Made by a program: the position numbers and the translations under genes. A stretch of 64,000 bases of DNA. It comes from Paracoccus cavernae. Its GTDB lineage: Bacteria > Pseudomonadota > Alphaproteobacteria > Rhodobacterales > Rhodobacteraceae. Numbering within the stretch: the first letter of the stretch is position 1; each line of letters starts with the position of its first letter. Positions 1-17,640 of this stretch are shown piece by piece. Location: contig JAUFRC010000003.1 in the NCBI GenBank assembly GCA_030410095.1, positions 1 to 64,000 on the forward strand, in the 5' to 3' direction. The notes below the pieces were generated by a model. That model was not told the DNA's origin. It saw only the letters and a list, made by a program, of their open reading frames with translations, and did not search any database.

Positions 1-92
1 CCAAGATCAACGAATCGCTCGCGAAGATGAAAGAAGACGGCCGCTACGACGCGATCTACGAAAAGTGGTTTGGCACCAAGCCGGCCAAGTAA
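1..92 (+). CDS. Amino-acid ABC transporter substrate-binding protein, C-terminal end only
   Basis: The window opens inside this gene. The last 29 codons, ending in TAA, read like the C-terminal helix of a family 3 periplasmic solute-binding protein: the segment DGRYDAIYEKWFG matches the DG-x-YdaIyeKWFG ending of polar amino-acid binding proteins. It is followed by a permease and an ATPase of the same transporter class, so it is the binding component of that importer. Start, signal peptide and ligand site lie outside the window, so the substrate cannot be read. Confidence 0.85.
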   Translation, partial: KINESLAKMKEDGRYDAIYEKWFGTKPAK

Positions 93-93
93 G

Positions 94-116
94 CGCCTCC
101 CGCACCTCCAGAGGCG
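94..116 (+). terminator. Intercistronic hairpin after the binding-protein gene
   Basis: CGCCTC at 94-99 pairs with GAGGCG at 111-116 around an 11-nt loop, one base after the stop codon. There is no T run. Hairpins here often protect the abundant binding-protein mRNA or partly terminate transcription before the permease gene. Weak evidence, based on position and pairing only. Confidence 0.35.
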
Positions 117-158
117 GGCGCGCGCCTCTGATCTTCCCCCATCCGGAGGCATTTTTCC

Positions 159-854
159 GTGAATATCGACTGGTCCGTCATCCCGACCTTCCTGCCTGCC
201 TTGCTTGCCGGCGCGAAGGTCACGCTTTTCATCACATTCTTCGGCCTGATCGGCGGCACGATCCTTGGCGTCCTGACGGGCCTCATGCGCGCTTACGGCA
301 ATAAACTCGTCAATGGTCTGGCGCTGGTCTATGTCGAGCTGATCCGCGGCACGCCCATCGTCGTGCAGGTGATGTTTTTGTATTTCGCGCTGCCGATCAT
401 CTTCAAGATCATCGGGCAAAGCTATGGAATCGAAGCACTTTCCAAGTTCCGCATCAATCCGATGACTGCCGCCGTCCTGACCATCATCATCAATGCCGGC
501 GCCTATATCGCCGAGGTGGTGCGCGGCGCGCTGCAATCGATCCCCAAAGGTCTGAGCGAAGCGGGCCTCGCCATGGGGCTGCCGCGCTGGAAGGTGCTGG
601 CCTATATCGTGGGCCCCCTGGCCTTCCGCCGCATGATCCCGCCGCTCGGCAACCAATATATCGTCTCGCTCAAGGACACCTCGCTCTTCATCGTCATCGG
701 TGTCGCCGAGCTGACGCGGACGGGGCAGGAAATCATGGCCTCGAACTTCCGCGCGGTCGAAATCTGGACGGCGGTCGGCCTCGTCTATCTGGTCATGACC
801 GGCATTTTGTCGATGACCCTCCGTCTCATTGAAAAGCGCATGAGGATCCTGTGA
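159..854 (+). CDS. Polar amino-acid ABC transporter permease
   Basis: Inner-membrane channel subunit of the HisM/GlnP type, 231 aa, intact. The GTG start is chosen because GGAGG lies about 10 bases upstream at 145-149. Hydrophobic segments occur near residues 12-40, 60-85, 95-125 and 190-220. The EAA loop that contacts the ATPase is visible as [20 protein letters not shown] (about residues 140-159). The stop codon overlaps the GTG of the ATPase gene by 4 bases. Only one permease gene is visible, so the channel may be a homodimer, or a second permease lies upstream of the window. Confidence 0.92.
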
Positions 855-1576
855 GCATCATCGAATTCCGCAAGACCTCGAAAAACTTCGGGGCGGTCCA
901 GGTTCTCAACGAGGTCGATCTGAACATCGACACCGGCGAGGTCGTCGTGCTGATCGGGCCTTCGGGCTCGGGCAAATCGACGCTTTTGCGCTGCATCAAC
1001 GGGCTCGAGCAGATCACCGGCGGCGATCTGGTCGTGGACGGGATGTCGGTGAAATCCGGCAATGCCAATCTGCGCACCATCCGTCAGGAAGCCGGCATGG
1101 TCTTCCAGCAGTTCAACCTTTTCCCCCAGATGACCGCGCTTGAAAACGTGGCTTTCGGTCCGCGCAAGGTCCGCGGCCTGTCGAAATCCGAGGCCGAGGC
1201 GCAGGCGCTGGACCTTCTCGACAAGGTCGGCCTCAAGGAGCGCGCGCATCATTACCCGTCCGAACTGTCGGGCGGCCAGCAGCAGCGCGTCGCGATCGCG
1301 CGGGCTTTGGCGATCCGGCCCAAGGTCATGCTCTTCGACGAGCCGACCTCGGCGCTCGACCCCGAACTCAAGCAAGAGGTGCTCAATGTCATGCGCCAGC
1401 TTGCGACCGAGGGCATGACCATGGTTGTCGTCACCCACGAGATGGGTTTCGCCAAACAGGTCGGCACGCGGCTGATCTTCATGGAACACGGAATAATCTC
1501 GGTGGATGGCGATCCGCGCGAGATGATTGATAACCCGCCAAGCGAGCGGTTGAAGGACTTTCTGCAACATGTCTAA
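851..1576 (+). CDS. Polar amino-acid ABC transporter ATP-binding protein
   Basis: Cytoplasmic ATPase of the GlnQ/HisP class, 241 aa, intact. Walker A is GPSGSGKST (residues 37-45), the Q-loop lies in [10 protein letters not shown], the signature is LSGGQQQR, Walker B is [12 protein letters not shown], and the H-loop is [10 protein letters not shown]. It starts with GTG, overlapping the permease stop, and its end overlaps the next gene by 8 bases. The importer is therefore translationally coupled to the C45-type enzyme that follows. Confidence 0.95.
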
Positions 1577-2615
1577 GCAAGCAAACGGCGCCGCCCACGA
1601 ACTCGGCTGGCGCAAGATCGCGGGCTCGACCCCGCGCGAGACCGGACGCGCCCTCGGCGCGGCGGGGCGCGACGCGGTGCACAAGCACCTGCCCTCCTCG
1701 GAGTATTTCCAGCTGATCACCGGCGAGGCCCATGCCGAAGCCGTGGCCCGCATGGCCGAACAGACCCGCCTCCGTTTCCCGAAGATCTGGGAAGAGATCG
1801 AAGGTCTGGCCGAGGGGCTCGAACTCTCGCTCGAGCAAACCTTCGCCTGGAACTGCCGCGGCGATTTGCTGGCGCGCACGCCGGACGGCTGCACCACGAT
1901 CCTGAGCGCCGGCCAATCCGATGGTCCGATGATCGCCCATAACGAAGACGGCCTGCCCTTCTTTCGCGGATCGAGCTTCATCGGCGAATTCGCCCCCGAA
2001 GGCGCACCCGCCTTCCGCGCCTTCTGCTATCCGGGCTCGATCCCGGGTCATACGATGGCTTTCAACGCGGCCGGTCTGGTGCAGGCGGTCAACAACATCC
2101 GCCTGACGGGGACCGAGCCCGATGTCCCGCGCATGGTGCTCGGCCGTGCGGTTCTGTCGGCGGCGGGCCTTGACGAAGCCGTTGCGATCCTGCGCGCCAA
2201 CGCCAATTCCGGCGGCTTCCATTTCGGTCTGGCCTGCGCGGGCGATCCGCGGCTTTTGTCGGTCGAATTCGGGCGCGGCGAGGTCTCGGTCGTGGCGCTT
2301 TCGGGCGTGAACGCCCATGCCAACCATGCGCTGCACCACGAGATCGGGCTGAAGCACCAGATCATCACGCAATCCTCGGGCGATCGCCAGATCCGCGCCG
2401 ATGCGCTGGTCGCCGAAGGACTCGATGCACTGTCGATCCTGCGCGATACCGGCGGCGCGGGCCTGCCGATCCGCCGCGATGCCGAGGATGATCCCGATGA
2501 CGAAAACACCCTCGGGACCGGCATTTTCCACATCAAGGCCGATGGCGTCCATTGGAGCATCTATGACCAAAGCACCGGACCTGCCGCCTATTCCGGCGTC
2601 GACCAGCGGGGCTGA
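1569..2615 (+). CDS. C45-family Ntn acyltransferase/hydrolase
   Basis: 348 aa, intact, related to acyl-CoA:6-aminopenicillanate acyltransferase and the C45 autoproteolytic family. These are N-terminal-nucleophile enzymes that cleave themselves before a cysteine and then hydrolyse or transfer acyl groups on amides. Gly107-Cys108 in DGCTTIL fits the self-cleavage site and nucleophile, and the following MIAHNEDG block is typical of the family. No signal peptide is seen, so it is cytoplasmic. Being coupled to an amino-acid importer, it probably deacylates or processes the imported compound. The true substrate is unknown; penicillin processing is not implied. Confidence 0.78.
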   Translation: MSKQANGAAHELGWRKIAGSTPRETGRALGAAGRDAVHKHLPSSEYFQLITGEAHAEAVARMAEQTRLRFPKIWEEIEGLAEGLELSLEQTFAWNCRGDLLARTPDGCTTILSAGQSDGPMIAHNEDGLPFFRGSSFIGEFAPEGAPAFRAFCYPGSIPGHTMAFNAAGLVQAVNNIRLTGTEPDVPRMVLGRAVLSAAGLDEAVAILRANANSGGFHFGLACAGDPRLLSVEFGRGEVSVVALSGVNAHANHALHHEIGLKHQIITQSSGDRQIRADALVAEGLDALSILRDTGGAGLPIRRDAEDDPDDENTLGTGIFHIKADGVHWSIYDQSTGPAAYSGVDQRG

Positions 2616-3572
2616 GGCGGGGCAGTCGGGACGAAAAGCGGGCAAAACCGGCACGGGCGGAGGCATTCCGCCCGAGGCCGGCGCGCCCCTCTCCCCCGCG
2701 AATTTCGAGGAATTGCGCGCTCTGGCCGTGGCGATCGCGCGCGGCGAGGCACGGGTCAGTCTGGGCAGCAAGGCGCGGGCGGCTTTGGGCCATCTGCTCG
2801 AATTGTCGGGCCATCCCGCGCTTTTGTCGATCACCAGCCTCGCCGAACATCTCGGCGTCAATCCCTCGACGCTGACGCGGCTGTCGCATGCGCTCGGCTA
2901 TCCGGGGTTCCCCGCCTTCCAGCGCGTGCTTTTGTCGTCATCGATGAATGCGCCGGGGATTTTCTATGCGCGGCAGGCCGAAGGCGCGCTGGTTGCGGGC
3001 AATAGCCTGCGCGGTGCGGTCACGCGGCTTTGTCGCGAAAATCAGGCCAATATCGACCGTTTCGTCGATCACTTCGACGAGGCGGGTTTTGCCGAGGCGG
3101 TCACGATGATCATGGCTGCGCCCCGCGTCGCGGTCCACGGCATCCGGCAATTTCACGCATTGGCAAGCTTTCTGGCCTACGGGCTGCGCATGATCCGCGC
3201 CGATGTCGTCATGCTGGACGGCAACAATCTCGGGATTGCCGAAGGGCTGGCCACTCTTGGTCCGCAGGATGTGCTGATCTCGGCCAGCTGCACCCCTATT
3301 CGGCGACGGTGATCGAGGTCGCGAATGCCGCGCGGGAAGCGGGGATCGCCACGGTCGCGATCACCGATCTGGCCAGCTCGCCGCTGGTGCCGAGCTCGCG
3401 CGCGGCGGTGCTCGTCGGGCATCAGTCGAGCTTCATCTCGAACAGCATCGGGGCCTTCATGGTCGCGGCGGAATGCCTGATCAACGCCTGCGCCGCCCAT
3501 CGCCCCGAAGAGACCCGCGCCGCTTTGCAGGCACGGGCCAGGATGATCCGGCGGCTGGGAATCGAGGTCTAG
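2563..3572 (+). CDS. RpiR-family transcriptional regulator (one frame break)
   Basis: An N-terminal helix-turn-helix of RpiR type (SITSLAEHLGVNPSTLTRLS) is followed by a SIS domain (VAVHGIRQFHALASFLAY ... VIEVANAAREAGIATVAITD). The ATG at 2563 has GGAG about 8 bases upstream and lies inside the end of the C45 gene, a 53-base overlap. The reading frame shifts near 3290: LISAS continues as HPYSATVIEV in another frame. I read this as a single-base sequencing error. RpiR regulators usually sense sugar phosphates through SIS, but several act in amine and amino-acid catabolism. It probably controls this operon. Confidence 0.82.
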
Positions 3573-3630
3573 GCGGGGCGGGGTCGTCTCCGCCCGAGCG
3601 GGCGGTCCGCGCCGCTCTGCCCTGTTCCGG

Positions 3631-3669
3631 TCTGGTGGCGCGGCGGTTCAGCCCAGCCGCGCCACCAGA
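3631..3669. terminator. Perfect 14-bp inverted repeat between convergent genes
   Basis: TCTGGTGGCGCGGC at 3631-3644 and its exact complement at 3656-3669 flank an 11-nt loop. The loop contains the stop codon of the BKACE gene (3648-3650). No T run follows on either strand. The position between convergent RpiR and BKACE genes suggests a two-way terminator or mRNA end-protecting hairpin. Confidence 0.5.
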
Positions 3670-4402
3670 TCCGCCACCCGCGCGGCATTGCTGTCGGCAA
3701 GCCGCCCGTCGGGGTGGTGGAGGTTGTTCTCGAAACCGATCCGCGCCTTGCCGCCAAGCGCCAGCGCCGCGATCAGGCAATCGGTTTCCGATTGGCCAAA
3801 AGCGCAAAGCCCCCAATCAACCTTGCGGTCCGCGAAATGCGCCGCACGCCGCGCGACGTCCGTAGGGTCCGAGACCTGACCGACCGAATAGCGCCCCAGC
3901 ACATGCAGGATCTGCGGCACTTCGTCCGGAATCACGAGTTTGTCATGCAAGGCAATGAATTCGCGGCATTCTTCCTCGCTGTAAAGAATGTGCTGAACCC
4001 CGATGCCTTCCACTTTGCAGAAGGCGAAAAGATCGGCGGTCGCGGCTTCGTCGCCGTCCGACAGGATCTCGCGCATCCCGATCGAGACCTGTTTGGGCCG
4101 CAGGTCGCGCACCAGATCGCGCTGGACCTGTGCGGAATACTGCCCGACCGCCTCGGTGGTGATCTGGACGAAAAAGCCTGGAAAGGCGCGGTCGGTCTCG
4201 GCCAGAAGCTCGCGGTAAAGGCCCGCGTCAAGGCTGTGTTTTCCTCGGCGTCGCGGATATGGGCGTGAAGACCGTCCGCGCCGGCGGCAATCGCGGCGCG
4301 GGTTTCCTCGATGACTTCGGCCACCGTCACCGGCAGGCGGGGATGGTCGGCCTTGGTTTTGCGCGCCCCGTTCGGCGCGAGCATGATGCGGGGAAGCGCC
4401 AT
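3648..4402 (-). CDS. BKACE (DUF849) beta-keto acid cleavage enzyme (one frame break)
   Basis: Beta-keto acid cleavage enzymes condense a 3-keto acid with acetyl-CoA and release acetoacetate plus a new CoA ester, using a zinc-bound TIM barrel. The N-terminus LPRIMLAPNGARKTKADHP and the segment AGADGLHAHIRDA, with the HxH zinc ligands, are diagnostic. So are RPKQVSIGMREI and, near the C-terminus, ARIGFENNLHHPDGRLADSN. The frame breaks near 4230; DAGLYRELLAETDRAFPGFF can be read between the two pieces. It overlaps the aminotransferase stop by one base, so the two genes are coupled. Substrate specificity cannot be read. Confidence 0.85.
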
Positions 4403-5718
4403 CAGCCCACCACCGCGCGGATCGCGCCCGAGATGCGCTCGACGATCAGATCGACCTCCTCCGCGGTGATGATATAGGGCGGCGCGAGCAGGATGTGGTC
4501 GCCCCTGATGCCGTCGATCGTCCCGCCCATCGGATAGGACATGAGGCCGCGCGCCATTGCCTCTTTCTTGATTTTGGCGTGGGTCTTGAGCTTGGGGTCA
4601 AGGGTTCTTTGCTGGCGCGGTCGGCGACCAGCTCGATGCCGCGAAACAGCCCGCGACCGCGGATGTCGCCGACATTGGGGTGATCGCCAAGCGCGGCCGT
4701 CAGCCCGTCCTGCAGGCGTTGACCCATCGCGTTCACATTCTCCATCAGGCCGGGGCGGGTCATGATCTCGACCACTTTATCGGCCGCAGCCGCCGCAACC
4801 GGATGGCCGAGATAGGTATGGCCATGCTGGAACAACCCCGAGCCGTTGCGGAAGGCGTCGTAGATTTTCGTCGACAGAAGCAGCGCGCCCACCGGCTGGT
4901 AGCCACCGCCCAGACCCTTGGCGATTGTCACGATATCCGGGACAATCCCTCTTGCTCGAACGCGAAGATCGAGCCGGTCCGGCCCATGCCGCACATCACC
5001 TCGTCAAGGATCAGCAGCACGCCGTATTTGTCGCAAACCGCTCGGATCTGCTTGAAGTAACCGGCCACGGCAGGCACCGCGCCAAGCGTTGCCCACCACC
5101 GGCTCGGCCACGAAAGCGATGACCTCGTCGGCACCCAAGGCAAGGATCTGGTCCTCCAGCTCGCGGGCGAGACGGGCGGCATAGGCCTCGGGGCCTTCCT
5201 GCGCGCCCATGTCGCGATAGGCGTAGCAGGGCGAGACGTGGTGCGTCTCTGGCAGGATCGGCTGGAATTGCGCGCGCCGCCAGGCATTGCCGCCCGTCGC
5301 AAGCGCGCCGATCGTATTGCCGTGATAGCTTTGCCGGCGCGCGATGATATGGCGGCGCTGCGGCTGGCCGATCTCGACGAAATATTGCCGCGCCATTTTC
5401 AGCGCCGCCTCGACCGCCTCTGAGCCGCCGGACACGAGATAGACGTAATCGAGCCCCTCGGGCGTCAGCCCGACCAGACGTTCGGCGAGGGATTCCGCCG
5501 CATCGGTGGTGAAAAACGATGTATGCGCATAGGCGATCTTGTCCATCTGCGCGCGCATCGCATCCAGCACCTCGGCATTGCCGTGGCCAAGGCTGGTGAC
5601 CGCCGCCCCGCCCGAGCCGTCGAGATAACGCCGCCCCTCGGAGTCGGTGATCCAGACACCCTGCCCCGCGACGGCGCGGGAGATCGGGTCCGATGCTGCG
5701 ATGGAGGATTTTCGTCAT
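4402..5718 (-). CDS. Class III aminotransferase (omega-transaminase type, about four frame breaks)
   Basis: A PLP-dependent fold-type I aminotransferase of about 440 aa. N-terminal MTKILHRSIG is followed by the substrate-entry block GHGNAEVLDAMRAQMD, GGSEAVEAALKMARQY (phosphate-binding Gly-Ser), HHVSPCYAYRD, LILDEVMCGMGRTG (the PLP-binding Asp) and TIAKGLGGGYQPVGA with the Schiff-base lysine. It ends in GDHILLAPPYIITAEEVD. Breaks lie near 5685, 5095, 4955 and 4600, each with clear continuation. It is translated just before BKACE. An amino compound could be transaminated to a keto acid and then cleaved by BKACE. Confidence 0.86.
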
Positions 5719-5756
5719 GATGCTGGTCCCGATGGCGCGAATCACGCGCAATTGCT

Positions 5757-5766
5757 GAAACGTTTC
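5757..5766. promoter_or_regulatory. Palindrome GAAACGTTTC, candidate RpiR operator
   Basis: A perfect 10-bp palindrome lies in the 198-bp divergent region, 39 bp upstream of the aminotransferase start. Further GAAAC/GTTTC half sites lie close by (5803-5807, 5892-5896). RpiR-family operators are often palindromes of this kind. Assignment to the neighbouring RpiR gene is inference. Confidence 0.4.
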
Positions 5767-5916
5767 TTCGACTGTGCACCGCGCCGGAAGAATTGCAACA
5801 TCCGTTTCATTATGACAGATTGGATTCATTCAGATCGCTCCATGTCGCGCCGCCATTCCTATTATGCTTGGAATCCGCGCAAGGATGCGGAAACATGATC
5901 CGGCCTGCCCCGAAAG

Positions 5917-6816
5917 ATGAAACAGATGTCGCAAAACGGTCCCCTTCACCAACAGCTGATCGACCGTTTCGACGAAATGTCGCCGCAGCTTCAGCAGGCT
6001 GCGCGCTATCTGATTGAAAATCCGCAGGAAATTGCTCTCCGCTCGATGCGAGAGCTGGCGCGTAATGCCGGCGTCCAGCCTGCGACCATGACCCGGCTCG
6101 CAAAATTTATCGAGCTGTCGGGCTATGAGGATCTGCGTCGCGAACAGGCGCGGCTGATCCGTCAGGGCGGCGAGGGCTTTGTCCATCGCGCGCTCGAAAG
6201 CGACCGCAATCTGGTCGCGGGCAGTCCGGAGGGGCTCGCGCAGGAGGTGCTTGGGGGCCTTGCCGCGCAGATCGAGCAGCTGCGCCAGCCCCAGACCATC
6301 GCGCGCCTGACCGGTGCCGCCGATTGTCTGGCGGGCGCGCGGCGCATCTATGTGCAGGGCGCCCGCTCGTGTCATTCGGTCGCGTGGCAGTTCCATTACG
6401 TCCTCTCGCTCATGGGCGAAAAGACGGTGCTTCTGGAGGCACCGGGGGCACGGGGCCGATGCCTTGATGCGCGCCGAGGCGGGCGATGTCCTTTGGTGAT
6501 CGCGGTCAGCCCCTATTCGCGCCAGAGCCTCGATGTCGCCAATCTCGCGCGCGAGCGCGGGCTAAAGCTGGTGGCGATCACCGATAGCGCGGTCTCGCCG
6601 CTGCTGTCTTTGGCCGATCATGCCGTGCTCTGCCCGACCGCCAGCCCGACCTTTTTCCACAGTCTGACCCCCGCGATGGCGGTTTGCGAGGTGCTTTGCG
6701 GGCTTTTGGCCAAGGCCGACCGCGGCGCGGCGCTCGAAGCTTTGGCGAAAACCGACGCCCAGCTCCGCGCGCTCGAGGCCTATGCGGCGGCGATCCCCAA
6801 GCGCAAGATCGGCTAG
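5917..6816 (+). CDS. RpiR-family transcriptional regulator, second copy
   Basis: 299 aa with an HTH near residues 45-65 (ARNAGVQPATMTRLAKFIEL) and a SIS domain from about residue 130 (RIYVQGARSCHSVAWQFHY ... VIAVSPYSRQSLDVANLARERG). The frame looks open, but residues about 176-192 are unlike the family. Shifting one frame across 6440-6495 restores GHGADALMRAEAGDVL, so an extra G near 6440 and a missing T near 6493 cancel out. It is divergent from the aminotransferase-BKACE pair and is its likely regulator. A start at 5926 is possible. Confidence 0.85.
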   Translation: MKQMSQNGPLHQQLIDRFDEMSPQLQQAARYLIENPQEIALRSMRELARNAGVQPATMTRLAKFIELSGYEDLRREQARLIRQGGEGFVHRALESDRNLVAGSPEGLAQEVLGGLAAQIEQLRQPQTIARLTGAADCLAGARRIYVQGARSCHSVAWQFHYVLSLMGEKTVLLEAPGARGRCLDARRGGRCPLVIAVSPYSRQSLDVANLARERGLKLVAITDSAVSPLLSLADHAVLCPTASPTFFHSLTPAMAVCEVLCGLLAKADRGAALEALAKTDAQLRALEAYAAAIPKRKIG

Positions 6817-9137: not shown

Positions 9138-9623
9138 ATGAAAACGACCACTCTCGCACTGGGCCTTGCACTTCTCGCGGCTCCGGCTTTCGCGCAGGAC
9201 AAAGTTGCGCAAGAGAGCCTCGGCACCGCATTCGCGGTCGAGCTGGCCCAGTCGACCGTCGCGGCTTGCGCAGCCGACGGCTATCAGGTCACCGCAGCCG
9301 TGACCGACCGTGCGGGCAACCTGCTGGCACTGGTGCGTGCCGAGAATGCCGGCCCCCATACCGTCGATGCGGCGACCGCGAAGGCCTATACCTCGGCTTC
9401 CTCGCGCAACCCGACCAGCGGCATCGCGAAGGCCGTGCAGGAGAACGCCGGTGCGGCGGGCATGGTCGACATTCCGGGCTTCCTCGTGCTGGCAGGCGGT
9501 CTGCCGGTGAAATCGGGCGACGTGACCCTTGGCGCGATCGGCGTCGGCGGTGCACCGGGCGGCCATCTCGACGAAGCCTGCGCGCAAAAGGCGCTGGACG
9601 GTCTGGCTGCACGGCTGCAGTAA
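9138..9623 (+). CDS. Secreted GlcG/HbpS-family haem-binding-type protein
   Basis: 161 aa, intact, with a clear Sec signal peptide (MKTTTLALGLALLAAPAFAQ, cleavage after AFA). The rest is a DUF336/GlcG domain: VTAAVTDRAGNLLALVRAENAGPHTVDAATAKAYTSAS, then GFLVLAGGLPVK and LGAIGVGGAPGGHLDEACA. Relatives bind haem or act beside two-component systems as extracytoplasmic partners. CAGGAG precedes the start. The kinase/regulator pair lies just upstream but is separated by a terminator, so a functional link is only suggested. Confidence 0.82.
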   Translation: MKTTTLALGLALLAAPAFAQDKVAQESLGTAFAVELAQSTVAACAADGYQVTAAVTDRAGNLLALVRAENAGPHTVDAATAKAYTSASSRNPTSGIAKAVQENAGAAGMVDIPGFLVLAGGLPVKSGDVTLGAIGVGGAPGGHLDEACAQKALDGLAARLQ

Positions 9624-9642
9624 GCCCTCCGCAAGGACAGGA

Positions 9643-9671
9643 CCCGCGGCGCGAAAGTGCTGCGGGCTTTT
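9643..9671 (+). terminator. Rho-independent terminator after the haem-binding-type gene
   Basis: CCCGCGGCGC and GTGCTGCGGG form a 10-bp stem (two G-T pairs) closed by a GAAA tetraloop and followed by CTTTT. It lies 20 bases after the stop codon. Confidence 0.8.
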
Positions 9672-9722
9672 CGTTTCTGGGCCCCGAACGCCCGCGTTGC
9701 GACCCCGTTTTACGATCCCGTG

Positions 9723-10580
9723 TTACGATCCCGACCTGCCGCGGGCGCGCTGCGCCAGAAGGCCGATCATTTCGGCGGCGAGATCGGCAATCGCTCCGGC
9801 ATTTTCCCAGGCATAAAGCGAGAGCGTCATCGACGGCTCGGGCGCGAAGGCCGGACTGGGGCGCAGACCGGCAAGGCCGACCGCATGCAGGGGCAAAAGG
9901 GACAGGCCGAGACCCGCGGCAACAGCAACCTCGACGCTTTTGAGGCTGCTGCCCGAAAAGGCCACATACCAGCGCCGGTTCTCGCGCTCGATGGCGGCAA
10001 ACATCGCCTCGCGGTAAAGACCGCCCGGCGGAAAGGCGACCAGAGGCACCGGATCCGCATGGACGGGCGGGGCTTCGGCGCTTTCGAACCAACCGAGCGG
10101 TTCGGGAAAAGAGGCGCGGCTATCGGCCTCGGCCGCGCGTTCCTTGACGACGACGATATCGAATTCGCCGCTGCGGTAGCGCTGCATGAGATCGCGGCTG
10201 AGGCCTGCGGTCACATCCAGACGGAACTGGCGATGCGTGGCGGAAAAAGCCTTGAAGACCCGCGCCATCTCGGCGCCCGCGATGTCTTCGGGCACGCCGA
10301 TGCGGATCGCGGCGCTGCCGACCGGATCGCGCAACAGCGTCTCGGCCTCGGTTTGCAGCGCGAGGATGCGGCGGGCATGACCCAAAAGCCGCTCGCCTGC
10401 GGTGGTGGGCCGGATCGGACGGGCGCTGCGGTCGATCAGGCTACGGCCCACCGCCTCTTCGAGCCGCCCGAGCTGCTGGCTGATCGTCGATTGCGTCATG
10501 TTCAGAAGCTCTGCCGCGCGGGTAAAGCCGCCCGCATCGCAGATCGTCACGAAAGCGCGCAGCAGACGGGGATCAAGCAT
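9723..10580 (-). CDS. LysR-family transcriptional regulator
   Basis: 285 aa, intact. The N-terminal winged HTH is LLRAFVTICDAGGFTRAAEL and LNMTQSTISQQLGRLEEAVG, followed by the usual effector-binding region with IRIGVPEDIAG at its start and SVEVAVAAGLGLSLLPLHAV near the end. It is divergent from the ankyrin-deaminase-transporter operon, as is typical for a LysR regulator and its target. The inducer is unknown. Confidence 0.9.
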   Translation of the reverse strand: MLDPRLLRAFVTICDAGGFTRAAELLNMTQSTISQQLGRLEEAVGRSLIDRSARPIRPTTAGERLLGHARRILALQTEAETLLRDPVGSAAIRIGVPEDIAGAEMARVFKAFSATHRQFRLDVTAGLSRDLMQRYRSGEFDIVVVKERAAEADSRASFPEPLGWFESAEAPPVHADPVPLVAFPPGGLYREAMFAAIERENRRWYVAFSGSSLKSVEVAVAAGLGLSLLPLHAVGLAGLRPSPAFAPEPSMTLSLYAWENAGAIADLAAEMIGLLAQRARGRSGS

Positions 10581-14709: not shown

Positions 14710-15517
14710 ATGAAACTGAGCCATTTTGCCGCAGGCCTGCTGACGGCCACCATCGCCTCGAGCGCGGCCTATGCCGACAAGCTCGACGACATCATCGCCT
14801 CGGGCACGCTGCGTTGCGCGGTCGTGCTGGATTTCCCGCCGATGGGATCGCGCGATGAAAACAACAATCCGATCGGCTTCGACGTCGATTACTGCAACGA
14901 CCTCGCCGCCTCGCTCGGCGTGACGGCCGAGATCGTCGAAACCCTTCCCCGAGCGCATCCCCGCGCTGATGTCGGGCCGCGTCGATGTCGGCGTCGCCTC
15001 GACCTCGGACACGCTCGAGCGCGCCAAGACCATCGGCGTGACCATCCCCTATTACGCTTTCGAGAACTCGGTCGTCGTCAACGACAAGACCGACATCACC
15101 AGCTGGGAAGGCATGAAGGGCAAGACCGTCGGCGCGACCGCGGGCACTTATGAAGCCATCTGGCTGGAAGGCCAGATCAAGGAATGGGGCGAAGGCACCT
15201 TCCGTCCCTACCAGACCCAGGCGGATGTCTTCCTTGCGCTGAGCCAGGGCCAGCTGGACGCGACCGTCGGCACCACCGAAGTCGCCAATGCCAACGTCAA
15301 ATCCGGCAAATTCGCCGGCATCAAGATCGTCGACAAGGCACCGATGGTTCCCGACTACGTCTCGCTCTTCACGATGCGTCAGGAATACGGCCTGATCAAC
15401 TACATGAACCTGTTCATCAACCAGCAGGTCCGTACCGGCCGTTATGCCGAACTCTACGCCAAATGGGTCGGCGAGGGCGAGCCCGCCAACCTGACCGTTC
15501 AGGGCGTTTACCGCTGA
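14710..15517 (+). CDS. ABC transporter substrate-binding protein, probable hydroxyproline importer (one frame break)
   Basis: A periplasmic family 3 solute-binding protein with signal peptide MKLSHFAAGLLTATIASSAAYA. Motifs follow in order: TLRCAVVLDFPPMGSRDENN, IGFDVDYCNDLAASLGV, RIPALMSGRVDVGVASTSDT and KGKTVGATAGTYEAIWLE. An extra C near 14950 breaks the frame at VET/FPERIPAL. It is first in an operon whose enzymes all handle hydroxyprolines, so trans-4-hydroxy-L-proline or a related compound is the likely ligand (inference from context). A hairpin follows the gene. Confidence 0.85.
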
Positions 15518-15532
15518 TCTAATGTTTCATCG

Positions 15533-15562
15533 CGGCGCGGGGCCAAAGCCCTGCGCCGTTTT
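15533..15562 (+). terminator. Intercistronic stem-loop with T run after the binding-protein gene
   Basis: A 10-bp stem pairs 15533-15542 with 15549-15558 (one G-T pair) around a 6-nt loop and is followed by TTTT. In binding-protein operons such elements let most transcripts stop, so the binding protein is made in excess over the membrane subunits. Confidence 0.65.
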
Positions 15563-15591
15563 CCCGAACAACAACAATCAGCGGGAAGAGA

Positions 15592-16257
15592 ATGTTTAGT
15601 TACACGTTCCAGTGGAATCAGGCGCTCCAGCGTTTGCCACAGATGCTGGACGGCGCATTGGTGACGATGCAGATCGCGATTTTGTCGATGGTCCTCGGGA
15701 TCGTCCTTGCGGTTGCCCTCACCATCTTCCGCCGCTCCGGCTCGCGCATTTTGCGCGCCATCGCCACAGGCTGGGTCGAGCTTGCCCGCAACACGCCGGC
15801 GCTGTTCCAGATCTATATGGCCCATTTCGGCATCGCGAGTTTCGGCGTCCACCTGAGCCCCTTCGTCTCGCTGCTGATCGGCATCACCTTCAACAATGCG
15901 GGCTATCTGGCGGAGAACTTCCGCGGCGCGCTGAAGGCCATTCCCGATACCCAGACCCGCGCCGGCCGCTCGCTCGGCATGAGCGAGGGACAGAGCTTCC
16001 GCTATATCGTCGCGCCCCAGATGCTGCGCATCGCCTTCCTGCCGATGACCAACCAAATGGTCTGGGCCGTGCTGATGACCTCGCTCGGCGTGACGGTGGG
16101 CATGAACACCGACCTTTACGGGGTGACGCAGGATCTCAATGCCCTGACCTTCCGCACCTTCGAGCTTTTCGCGATTGCCGCCGTGATCTTCTATGTGATC
16201 ACGAAAGTCATCACCCTTGGCGCGCGCCTGATTGCGGCGCGGCTGTTCCGGTACTGA
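15592..16257 (+). CDS. Amino-acid ABC transporter permease, subunit 1
   Basis: 221 aa, intact, HisM/GlnP type. The membrane helices include TMQIAILSMVLGIVLAVALTIF and FVSLLIGITFNNAGYLAENF. The EAA loop reads AGRSLGMSEGQSFRYIVAPQ. GGGAAGAG precedes the ATG. It pairs with the next gene to form a heterodimeric channel. Confidence 0.92.
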   Translation: MFSYTFQWNQALQRLPQMLDGALVTMQIAILSMVLGIVLAVALTIFRRSGSRILRAIATGWVELARNTPALFQIYMAHFGIASFGVHLSPFVSLLIGITFNNAGYLAENFRGALKAIPDTQTRAGRSLGMSEGQSFRYIVAPQMLRIAFLPMTNQMVWAVLMTSLGVTVGMNTDLYGVTQDLNALTFRTFELFAIAAVIFYVITKVITLGARLIAARLFRY

Positions 16258-16269
16258 GGGAGACACGCG

Positions 16270-16922
16270 ATGTTCGATACCGCCCTCACAACGGCCGATC
16301 TGGTCTTCCTCGCCAAAGGCGCGGGCATGACATTGCTCGTCACCGCCATCGCGGTGGTGGTGGGGACCATTCTCGGGATCATTTTCGGCGTGATCCGCTA
16401 TCAGGTCGGTGCGATCTGGGCCGCGCCTTTGACCTTCATCCTCGACATCTGCCGCTCGATCCCGCTGCTGATCCAGCTGGTGCTGCTCAATGCCTTCTTC
16501 GGCATCGTGCTCGGGCTGCGCTGGCCGGGGTTGACGGTCGCCTGTCTGGTGCTGTCGCTTTACACGGCCGCCTATTGCTCGGAAATCGTGCGCGGCGCGA
16601 TCGAGGCCGTGCCCGCCAATACCCGCCGCGCGGGGCGTTCGCTCGGGCTGAACTGGTGGCAGGACATGCGCTATATCGTGGCGCCGCTGGCGACGCGGGT
16701 CGCGCTGCCTTCGTGGATCGGGCTCGCGCTCGGCGTGATGAAGGATCGGCGCTGGTCTATGTCGTGCAGGTCACCGAGCTGATGAAATCGACCCAGATCC
16801 TCATCACGCGCCTGCAGGAGCCCTTGTTCCTTCTGCTCATCTGCGGCGCCTTCTACTTCATCATCTCCTACCCTCTTGCCCGTTTCGGCGGCTATCTCGA
16901 AAAACGGTGGTCCAATGATTGA
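16270..16922 (+). CDS. Amino-acid ABC transporter permease, subunit 2 (one frame break)
   Basis: An inner-membrane subunit of about 217 aa. It begins MFDTALTTADLVFLAKGAGMT and has the EAA loop AGRSLGLNWWQDMRYIVAP. A missing T near 16745 breaks VMKD/SALVYVVQVTELMKS; the C-terminus FYFIISYPLARFGGYLEKR is typical. The end overlaps the ATPase gene by 8 bases. Confidence 0.9.
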
Positions 16923-17640
16923 GATCGAAAACGTCCGCAAATCCTTTGGCCAGCTCGAGGTTCTCAAGGGCATCGACCTGACCGTCAAGAAAGGCGAGGT
17001 CGTCACCATCATCGGCGGTTCGGGTTCGGGGAAATCGACGCTTCTGACCTGTATCAACGGGCTGGAGCCGATCGCTTCGGGCAAGATCGTCATCGACGGG
17101 GTGGATGTCCACGCCAAGTCGACCGATCTGAACAAGCTGCGCCAGAAGGTCGGGATCGTTTTCCAGCAATGGAACGCCTTTCCGCACCTGACCGTGCTGG
17201 AAAACGTAACCCTCGCACCCCGCAAGGTGCTGGGCTATTCCAAGGAAAAGGCCGAGGAAATCGCCGTCAAACAGCTGACCCATGTCGGCCTTGGCGACAA
17301 GCTCAAGACCTATCCGACGCGGCTTTCGGGCGGCCAGCAGCAGCGTATGGCGATCGCCCGCGCGCTGGCGATGTCGCCCAGCTACATGCTGTTCGACGAG
17401 GTGACCTCGGCGCTCGATCCTCAGCTGGTGGGCGAGGTTCTCGATACGCTCAAGATGCTGGCGGACGAGGGGATGACGATGATCTGCGTCACCCACGAGA
17501 TGGCCTTTGCGCGCGACGTCTCGGACCGCGTGGCCTTCTTCCACCAAGGCGTCATGGCCGAGATCGGCGCGCCCGAGCAGCTGTTCGGCAATCCCCAGCA
17601 TCCCGAAACCCAGAAGTTCCTGTCGAGCACCCGTCAATGA
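16915..17640 (+). CDS. Amino-acid ABC transporter ATP-binding protein
   Basis: 241 aa, intact. Walker A GGSGSGKST (residues about 34-42), Q-loop IVFQQWNAFPHL, signature LSGGQQQR, Walker B YMLFDEVTSALD, H-loop CVTHEMAFA. Walker B has Val where most relatives have Pro (DEVTSALD); this variant is also known in GlnQ-like proteins. It energises the importer of this operon and overlaps the dehydrogenase start by 4 bases. Confidence 0.95.
   Translation: MIEIENVRKSFGQLEVLKGIDLTVKKGEVVTIIGGSGSGKSTLLTCINGLEPIASGKIVIDGVDVHAKSTDLNKLRQKVGIVFQQWNAFPHLTVLENVTLAPRKVLGYSKEKAEEIAVKQLTHVGLGDKLKTYPTRLSGGQQQRMAIARALAMSPSYMLFDEVTSALDPQLVGEVLDTLKMLADEGMTMICVTHEMAFARDVSDRVAFFHQGVMAEIGAPEQLFGNPQHPETQKFLSSTRQ

Follow-up and report, generated by a model that had tools for sequence, protein, structure and literature searches.

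A conserved gene cluster of a glutamine-type importer, a C45 hydrolase, an aminotransferase and a BKACE-like protein in Paracoccus cavernae, and its possible role in amide catabolism

The genes at the start of contig JAUFRC010000003.1 of Paracoccus cavernae, the first 64,000 nucleotides of which (the window) were analyzed here, have their closest described relatives in systems that are known one by one, i.e. the GlnHPQ glutamine ABC transporter, the C45 Ntn-hydrolases (e.g. the penicillin acyltransferase 2x1d and insect Tan) and the BKACE/Kce family (DUF849, PF05853). Between positions 1 and 6816, the window encodes a glutamine-type importer, a C45 enzyme, an RpiR-type regulator (RpiR1), a BKACE-like protein, a class III aminotransferase (AT) and a second RpiR regulator (RpiR2). 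The importer passes the HMM cut-offs of the glutamine transporter and retains most of its contact residues, but differs from it at one contact position and in its coupling to the C45 gene. The C45 protein shares the Cys nucleophile motif and the family HMMs with its relatives, while its similarity to 2x1d is low, its context is that of a glutamine importer and its predicted activity is that of an amidase. The BKACE-like protein has the fold, the Zn ligands and Tyr145 in common with Kce, but not the catalytic residues. Another described system, the TAXI-TRAP L-glutamate system VcGluP, shares its key residues with importers that are found next to the AT where C45 is absent. In a literature search on C45, BKACE/DUF849, AT/RpiR and beta-glutamate topics, which left most subscription papers outside, no description of the cluster was found. 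As far as searched, the cluster is thus undescribed as a system, as the original prediction from the window's sequence had supposed, although it is built from known families.

The neighborhood is real and conserved. It was surveyed in 90 C45 loci, consisting of the best 80 of 456 relatives identified by a profile built on ten C45 sequences, nine plasmid loci and the window cluster's own copy (L003), counted once in each tally. The tblastn identity cut-offs were 50% for GlnH and AT, 40% for RpiR1 and 38% for the BKACE-like protein. Here and below, AT, BKACE-like and carboxymuconolactone-decarboxylase family (CMD) genes were called by tblastn from a small number of queries at set identity thresholds, and both the C45 loci and the 63 AT loci treated below were picked by similarity and contain close relatives as well as the window cluster's own copy. 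GlnH was found in 68 of the 90 loci, always within 3 kb upstream of C45, and RpiR1 in 63, while AT was present in 28 and the BKACE-like gene in 20; 19 loci had both of the latter, and 16 had the complete set of five. GlnH fell below the cut-off in the remaining 22 loci, some of which are on short contigs while others have C45 in different surroundings. The AT and BKACE-like genes are placed divergently upstream in Paracoccus pantotrophus (L015), downstream in L026, co-directionally in L042, and split around the RpiR gene in Shinella (L016) and Rhizobium (L024). The core is carried, among others, by Rhodobacterales, Rhizobiaceae, Halomonadaceae, Paraglaciecola, Paraburkholderia, Pantoea and Phytobacter. 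Since the neighborhood recurs across many genera in varied arrangements, it is not due to chance, and the co-occurrence in other genomes that had been proposed as a check is borne out. The idea of one obligatory five-gene unit is not, as glnHPQ-C45-RpiR often occurs alone and the AT and BKACE-like genes are commoner than C45.

The BKACE-like gene (3660..4402, minus strand), which is frameshifted in the window, encodes a DUF849 Zn TIM-barrel protein that in the second assembly copy matched PF05853 with 146.3 bits (vs 24.8). We surveyed the residues of 36 BKACE-like proteins using Kce numbering. The Zn ligands His46, His48 and Glu230 were present in all 36, as was Arg226, and Tyr145 in 35. By contrast with Kce, the catalytic Glu143 was replaced by Ile and Asp231 by Asn in 36/36, Glu14 by Arg (30/36) or Thr (6/36), and neither the first Gly nor the Met of the GGM motif was retained in any of them. 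The Arg of an LGRY motif was invariant in 14 out of 14 BKACE-like proteins. Three true BKACE proteins from a different type of cluster (L036-type, see below) retain both the Glu and the Asp (3/3). The alignment is anchored by Tyr145 of CcaKce, which corresponds to Tyr173 of the Paracoccus denitrificans enzyme (PdKce) and lies two residues past the catalytic Glu (PMC12871164). In PdKce the substitution E171L, equivalent to position 143, abolishes activity (PMC11961710). Acetyl-CoA-dependent cleavage by the BKACE-like proteins was consequently rejected as improbable, given that the catalytic Glu is missing in all 36.

A structure predicted for a close relative, that of locus L029, together with 13 other sequences, had a mean pLDDT of 94.4 and was nearest to Kce (2y7e; Z score 30.9, root mean square deviation 2.2 over 248 residues). 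It also resembled cis-epoxysuccinate hydrolase (5zmu; Z score 26.1, deviation 2.3 over 233 residues, 24% identity). The fold search ranks DUF849 relatives first and carries no information on function, but with Kce as nearest neighbor the model suggests a DUF849 fold with the alteration located in the active site. The subfamily is probably mislabelled in databases, which call it a cleavage protein although the catalytic base is missing from its sequences, so that automatic labels may mislead. Decarboxylation has a precedent in the family: a re-analysis of a 725-protein study (PMC4922564) labels one DUF849 group "not BKACE, presenting decarboxylation activity" and further ones simply "not BKACE".

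A second line of evidence came from the genes that adjoin the AT. Out of 63 AT loci (identity cut-offs of at least 50% for AT and 35% for the BKACE-like protein, partner within 1.5 kb), 43 had the BKACE-like gene as neighbor, nine had a CMD gene, 11 had neither and none had both. If the loci were independent, the probability of no overlap would be about 7e-6, but they are partly related and the value is only descriptive. In one locus scored as neither (L140), a CMD gene lies just past the 1.5 kb limit. The CMD type occurs in Vreelandella, Billgrantia, Roseinatronobacter, Natronohydrobacter, Pantoea and Phytobacter. The CMD protein of L043 matched PF02627 with 43.3 bits (cut-off 23), and six further CMD loci, apart from the two enterobacterial ones discussed below, were identified by tblastn only. 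An AhpD-like peroxidase role was rejected for the CMD proteins, as no CxxC motif was seen in the two that were read (P0001 and P0002). The finding of two unrelated families in the same slot suggests that BKACE-like and CMD proteins perform one reaction, most likely decarboxylation of a beta-keto acid, which fits both and requires no acetyl-CoA. Furthermore, a third type of downstream module was found beside the C45 core in L022, L064 and L082, comprising an ADP-forming-type acyl-CoA ligase with a single enoyl-CoA hydratase in L064 and with a pair of them in each of the other two loci. A route proposed for beta-glutamate synthesis runs via glutaconyl-CoA and beta-glutamyl-CoA (PMC1224877). This module could reverse that route, which would suit a beta-amino acid.

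The AT and the BKACE-like protein form a pair of their own that is commoner than C45. The AT (about 4402..5718, minus strand; PF00202, NF005685, PRK07483 group) is frameshifted in the window; in the second copy, each half of the gene matched PF00202. A survey of 218 genomes representing 217 genera of the host's family identified the AT in 127, the BKACE-like gene in 59, and C45 and a close GlnH in six each. The AT was also present in 55 of the 59 genomes with the BKACE-like gene and in all six with C45. Out of 61 BKACE-like places, 48 were at most 2 kb from an AT place, the other 13 including the window's second copy. When 26 genomes having the C45 core without a local AT were chosen, 21 had an AT elsewhere (18 at no less than 54% identity), and the BKACE-like gene, found in nine, adjoined the AT in all nine.

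We then considered 35 AT regions without C45, of which 19 were chosen from the hits in the window's family, while the other 16 came from genomes that carry C45 at a locus lacking a neighboring AT. RpiR was found in 30 of these, the BKACE-like gene in 24, a TAXI-TRAP importer (a binding protein, a fused permease and a universal stress protein) in 21, and the latter two together in 18, so that the BKACE-like gene accompanies the AT in 18 of the 21 TAXI regions. The 21 TAXI binding proteins are 56-68% identical to VcGluP and retain its residues Y45, S75, Q93 and E125 in every case and Y200 in 19; they differ from it by Thr in place of M201 (20/21) and by their placement next to the AT. The TAXI system of Cereibacter sphaeroides has three downstream genes that are likely co-transcribed (PMC12632250). 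By the operon order of locus L115, the genes rsp_3804-3802 are likely candidates for the universal stress protein, AT and BKACE-like genes.

The importer genes of the window are glnH (solute-binding protein; only its 3' end at 1..92, plus strand), glnP (permease; 159..854, plus strand) and glnQ (ATPase; 851..1576, plus strand). All three products scored above the NCBIfam equivalog cut-offs for the glutamine transporter, namely GlnH, partial and taken from L003, with 377.8 bits against 303, GlnP with 342.2 against 303 (NF007028) and GlnQ with 440.5 against 379 (NF007027). In 66 GlnH proteins from the C45 loci we checked the glutamine-contact positions of the E. coli structure. D10, F13, F50, G68, T70, R75 and D157 were conserved in all 66, and K115 was Lys in 47 and Arg in 19, while position 119 was Ser (61) or Ala (5) and never Gly. 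This last position was discarded as proof of an altered specificity, since 4f3p, a solved glutamine-binding protein of Burkholderia type, also has Ala there; it is not diagnostic and gives a hint only. A GlnH-type binding protein with its contacts kept makes a glutamine-like amide, i.e. a free amino acid that carries an amide in its side chain, the likelier cargo. The N-acylated amine that the original prediction had the importer carry was rejected, as GlnH retains the contacts to the amino-acid part of glutamine. Another amino-acid ABC transporter is located 8 kb further on in the window (14857-17625), with 27-35% identity to GlnH, 33-34% to GlnP and 51% to GlnQ.

The C45 gene (1569..2615, plus strand) encodes a predicted amidase with 98.4 bits to PF03417 and 224.1 bits to NF040521. 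Its nucleophile, Cys108, lies in a D/E-G-C-T motif and is invariant in the ten-protein profile, with Cys at this position in 89 of 89 relatives. Against 2x1d the score was 33.5 bits with the single sequence and 71.5 bits with the profile. Insect Tan, a C45 enzyme, hydrolyzes beta-alanyl amides, and beta-glutamine is a substituted beta-alanine amide. In one such reaction, carcinine is split into beta-alanine and histamine (PMC5555718). The AT is accompanied by an importer of glutamate type in some loci and by one of glutamine type together with an amidase in others, and the simple inference is that C45 converts an amide to the acid used by the AT.

Taken together, our observations on the genes present, their conservation, the type of importer, the missing catalytic Glu and the BKACE-like/CMD exchange lead us to propose, tentatively, a catabolic cluster that runs from an amide to a decarboxylation. 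GlnHPQ would take up a glutamine-like amide, C45 would hydrolyze its side-chain amide to a glutamate-like acid, and the AT would transfer the (beta-)amino group to leave a beta-keto dicarboxylate, on which the BKACE-like Zn enzyme would act without acetyl-CoA, most likely by decarboxylation. The RpiR regulators may detect an intermediate. The order of import, C45 amide hydrolysis, transamination and keto-acid processing is that of the original prediction and is still the best reading; its neighborhood and overall logic stand, while the importer cargo and the acetyl-CoA step that it assigned are probably wrong. A class III AT together with an enzyme of beta-keto-acid type points to a beta-amino acid, and the importers point to the shape of glutamate or glutamine, hence beta-glutamate and beta-glutamine. 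The leading candidate route would accordingly be beta-glutamine to beta-glutamate to 3-oxoglutarate to acetoacetate and CO2, and genomes with the glutamate-type TAXI importer in place of GlnHPQ and C45 would take up the free acid. If the proposal holds, a DUF849 subfamily has been repurposed from CoA-dependent cleavage to decarboxylation. The cluster also offers a gene set that can be tested directly.

Both compounds are known from archaea. Beta-glutamine is made by Methanohalophilus and is listed with beta-glutamate among methanogen osmolytes (PMC1224877). In the ammonia oxidizer Nitrosopumilus maritimus, no identified metabolite was more abundant than beta-glutamic acid (730 mM), and two ocean profiles showed more of it in deep than in surface water (PMC8269262). 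Judged by genus names, many C45 carriers are halophilic or marine. It is conceivable, if somewhat unlikely, that the cluster is a pathway for archaeal osmolytes, in which beta-glutamine (via GlnHPQ and C45) and beta-glutamate (via TAXI) converge on the AT and a DUF849 decarboxylase, with CMD as a non-homologous stand-in. No bacterial genes for the breakdown of either compound were found in the literature, in a search outside which most subscription papers fell.

Several points weigh against the proposal. We infer every reaction step, as well as the substrate, from the genes. Many core loci lack a nearby AT, and five of the 26 chosen C45-core genomes have no AT at all (E<=1e-100). Conversely, 72 of the 127 AT genomes in the family survey lack the BKACE-like gene at the cut-off used (CMD was not searched there), TAXI is absent from 14 of the 35 AT regions without C45, and 11 of the 63 AT loci have neither partner. 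The enterobacterial CMD proteins score below the PF02627 cut-off (20.0 vs 23 in L018, no match in L017), and the Ala of 4f3p removes position 119 as a sign of a special ligand. The habitats of the plant-associated carriers (Rhizobium, Shinella and Pantoea), which the proposal does not explain, are not known to be rich in beta-glutamine. The decarboxylating DUF849 group of the re-analysis could not be matched to the BKACE-like subfamily. Lastly, VcGluP prefers L-glutamate (Kd 0.065 uM, vs 11 uM for L-glutamine; PMC11574862), and the TAXI system of C. sphaeroides sustains growth on L-glutamate (PMC12632250).

These last data also speak for the main rival, which we consider rather unlikely and in which L-glutamine, or a gamma-glutamyl amide such as gamma-glutamylmethylamide or theanine, would be salvaged. 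C45 would here be a glutaminase or gamma-glutamyl amidase releasing L-glutamate (and an amine), with the AT and BKACE-like protein as accessories acting on another metabolite. The glutamine-equivalog score and kept contacts of GlnH fit such salvage, as do the frequent solitary glnHPQ-C45-RpiR cores and the identity of the solved C45 relative 2x1d as an acyl-CoA:6-APA acyltransferase, the natural acyl group of which, alpha-aminoadipyl, resembles glutamyl. However, it leaves unexplained why the AT is joined by a BKACE-like or a CMD gene but never by both, why an acyl-CoA-ligase/hydratase module can be found instead, and why ordinary glutamine would have a dedicated importer and regulators.

A distinctly less probable rival has the AT and BKACE-like protein act on a different glutamate-like amino dicarboxylate, e.g. 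a 3- or 4-substituted glutamate, with the DUF849 protein as a hydro-lyase, or as a hydrolase like cis-epoxysuccinate hydrolase. The latter enzyme belongs to the same fold group, and the Arg at position 14 and the LGRY Arg suggest a dicarboxylate, but Kce is structurally closer and the exchange with a decarboxylase family points to decarboxylation. The route of the original prediction, from an N-acyl or amide amine via a beta-amino acid and a 3-keto acid to acetyl-CoA-dependent cleavage into acetoacetate and an acyl-CoA, is highly improbable, as DUF849 membership, the Zn ligands, Tyr145 and a fold nearest Kce are outweighed by the loss of both Glu143 and Asp231, by the inactivity of E171L and by the replacement of the BKACE-like protein by CMD in nine of 63 AT loci.

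The gene set, order, coupling overlaps and divergent second RpiR gene were found as first described when the coordinates were re-read. The overlaps are 4 bases between glnP and glnQ, 8 between glnQ and C45 and 1 between the AT and BKACE-like genes (TGATG). RpiR1 (2563..3572, start approximate, plus strand) has a frameshift near 3294; its pieces reach 26.6 bits for HTH_6 (cut-off 28.3) with no SIS match. L015 has an intact relative, to which they are 67 and 65% identical. RpiR2 (5917..6816, plus strand), divergent from the AT, has both HTH_6 (32.2 bits) and SIS (55.1 bits, cut-off 25). Genes on the loci were called with a custom-built gene caller.

The host contig (C3), of which the window is the start, measures 375,395 bp and is a Paracoccus-type replicon, its six closest plasmid matches all being from Paracoccus. 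Its first about 80.6 kb (1-~80,600) are present again at its end (~294,764-375,395), the copies being 99.4-99.9% identical in the compared stretches (both ends and about 30 kb from the start), with nearly all differences being small indels. This terminal repeat makes C3 probably an unclosed circle of about 295 kb, and places the missing part of glnH, which is cut at base 1 so that only its last approximately 92 bases lie inside the window, at the opposite contig end (L003, ~9151-9855). The C45 frame is intact in the window and broken in the second copy, whereas the BKACE-like gene is broken in the window and open in the second copy except for its first codons. The AT gene is broken in both, at different sites. 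As these breaks differ between the copies, they suggest errors in sequencing. The RpiR1 break is shared by the two copies (~3294).

Other surroundings of C45 were also seen. In Paracoccus aminovorans (L014, 11989-17628), a TniQ/TniB/Mu-type transposase region follows the glnHPQ-C45 core, at the site occupied by RpiR, BKACE-like and AT genes in relatives. A polyamine (Puu-like) link, considered for the Halomonas C45 on the basis of gene lengths (L051), was rejected, as two of the genes encode a histidine kinase and a response regulator and the third had no Pfam match. The Vreelandella C45 neighbors tested were guaB, guaA, argA and one permease. C45 matches were found in 221 plasmid records, 154 of them from Escherichia, Salmonella or Shigella. 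In the one such resistance plasmid that was read, a C45 homolog (L020, 9004-9912; 44% identity, match from query residue 49) is flanked by a Tn3-family transposase and aph(3')-Ia. On a conjugative plasmid of Thioclava (L021, 9977-11014), C45 follows an RND efflux operon without any glutamine importer. Lastly, a related operon type (L036, 256-10999, as well as L039 and L073) combines a Liv-type ABC transporter, a class III AT, true BKACE, GNAT, an HDAC-like deacetylase, DgcA- and DgcN-like genes and C45. It resembles the catabolism of beta-lysine or N6-acetyl-beta-lysine, and its AT is related to that of the window (45%), while GNAT, HDAC and true BKACE are absent from the window cluster. In L082 (16690-20485), AT, BKACE, GNAT and HDAC genes are found beside the glnHPQ-C45 core.

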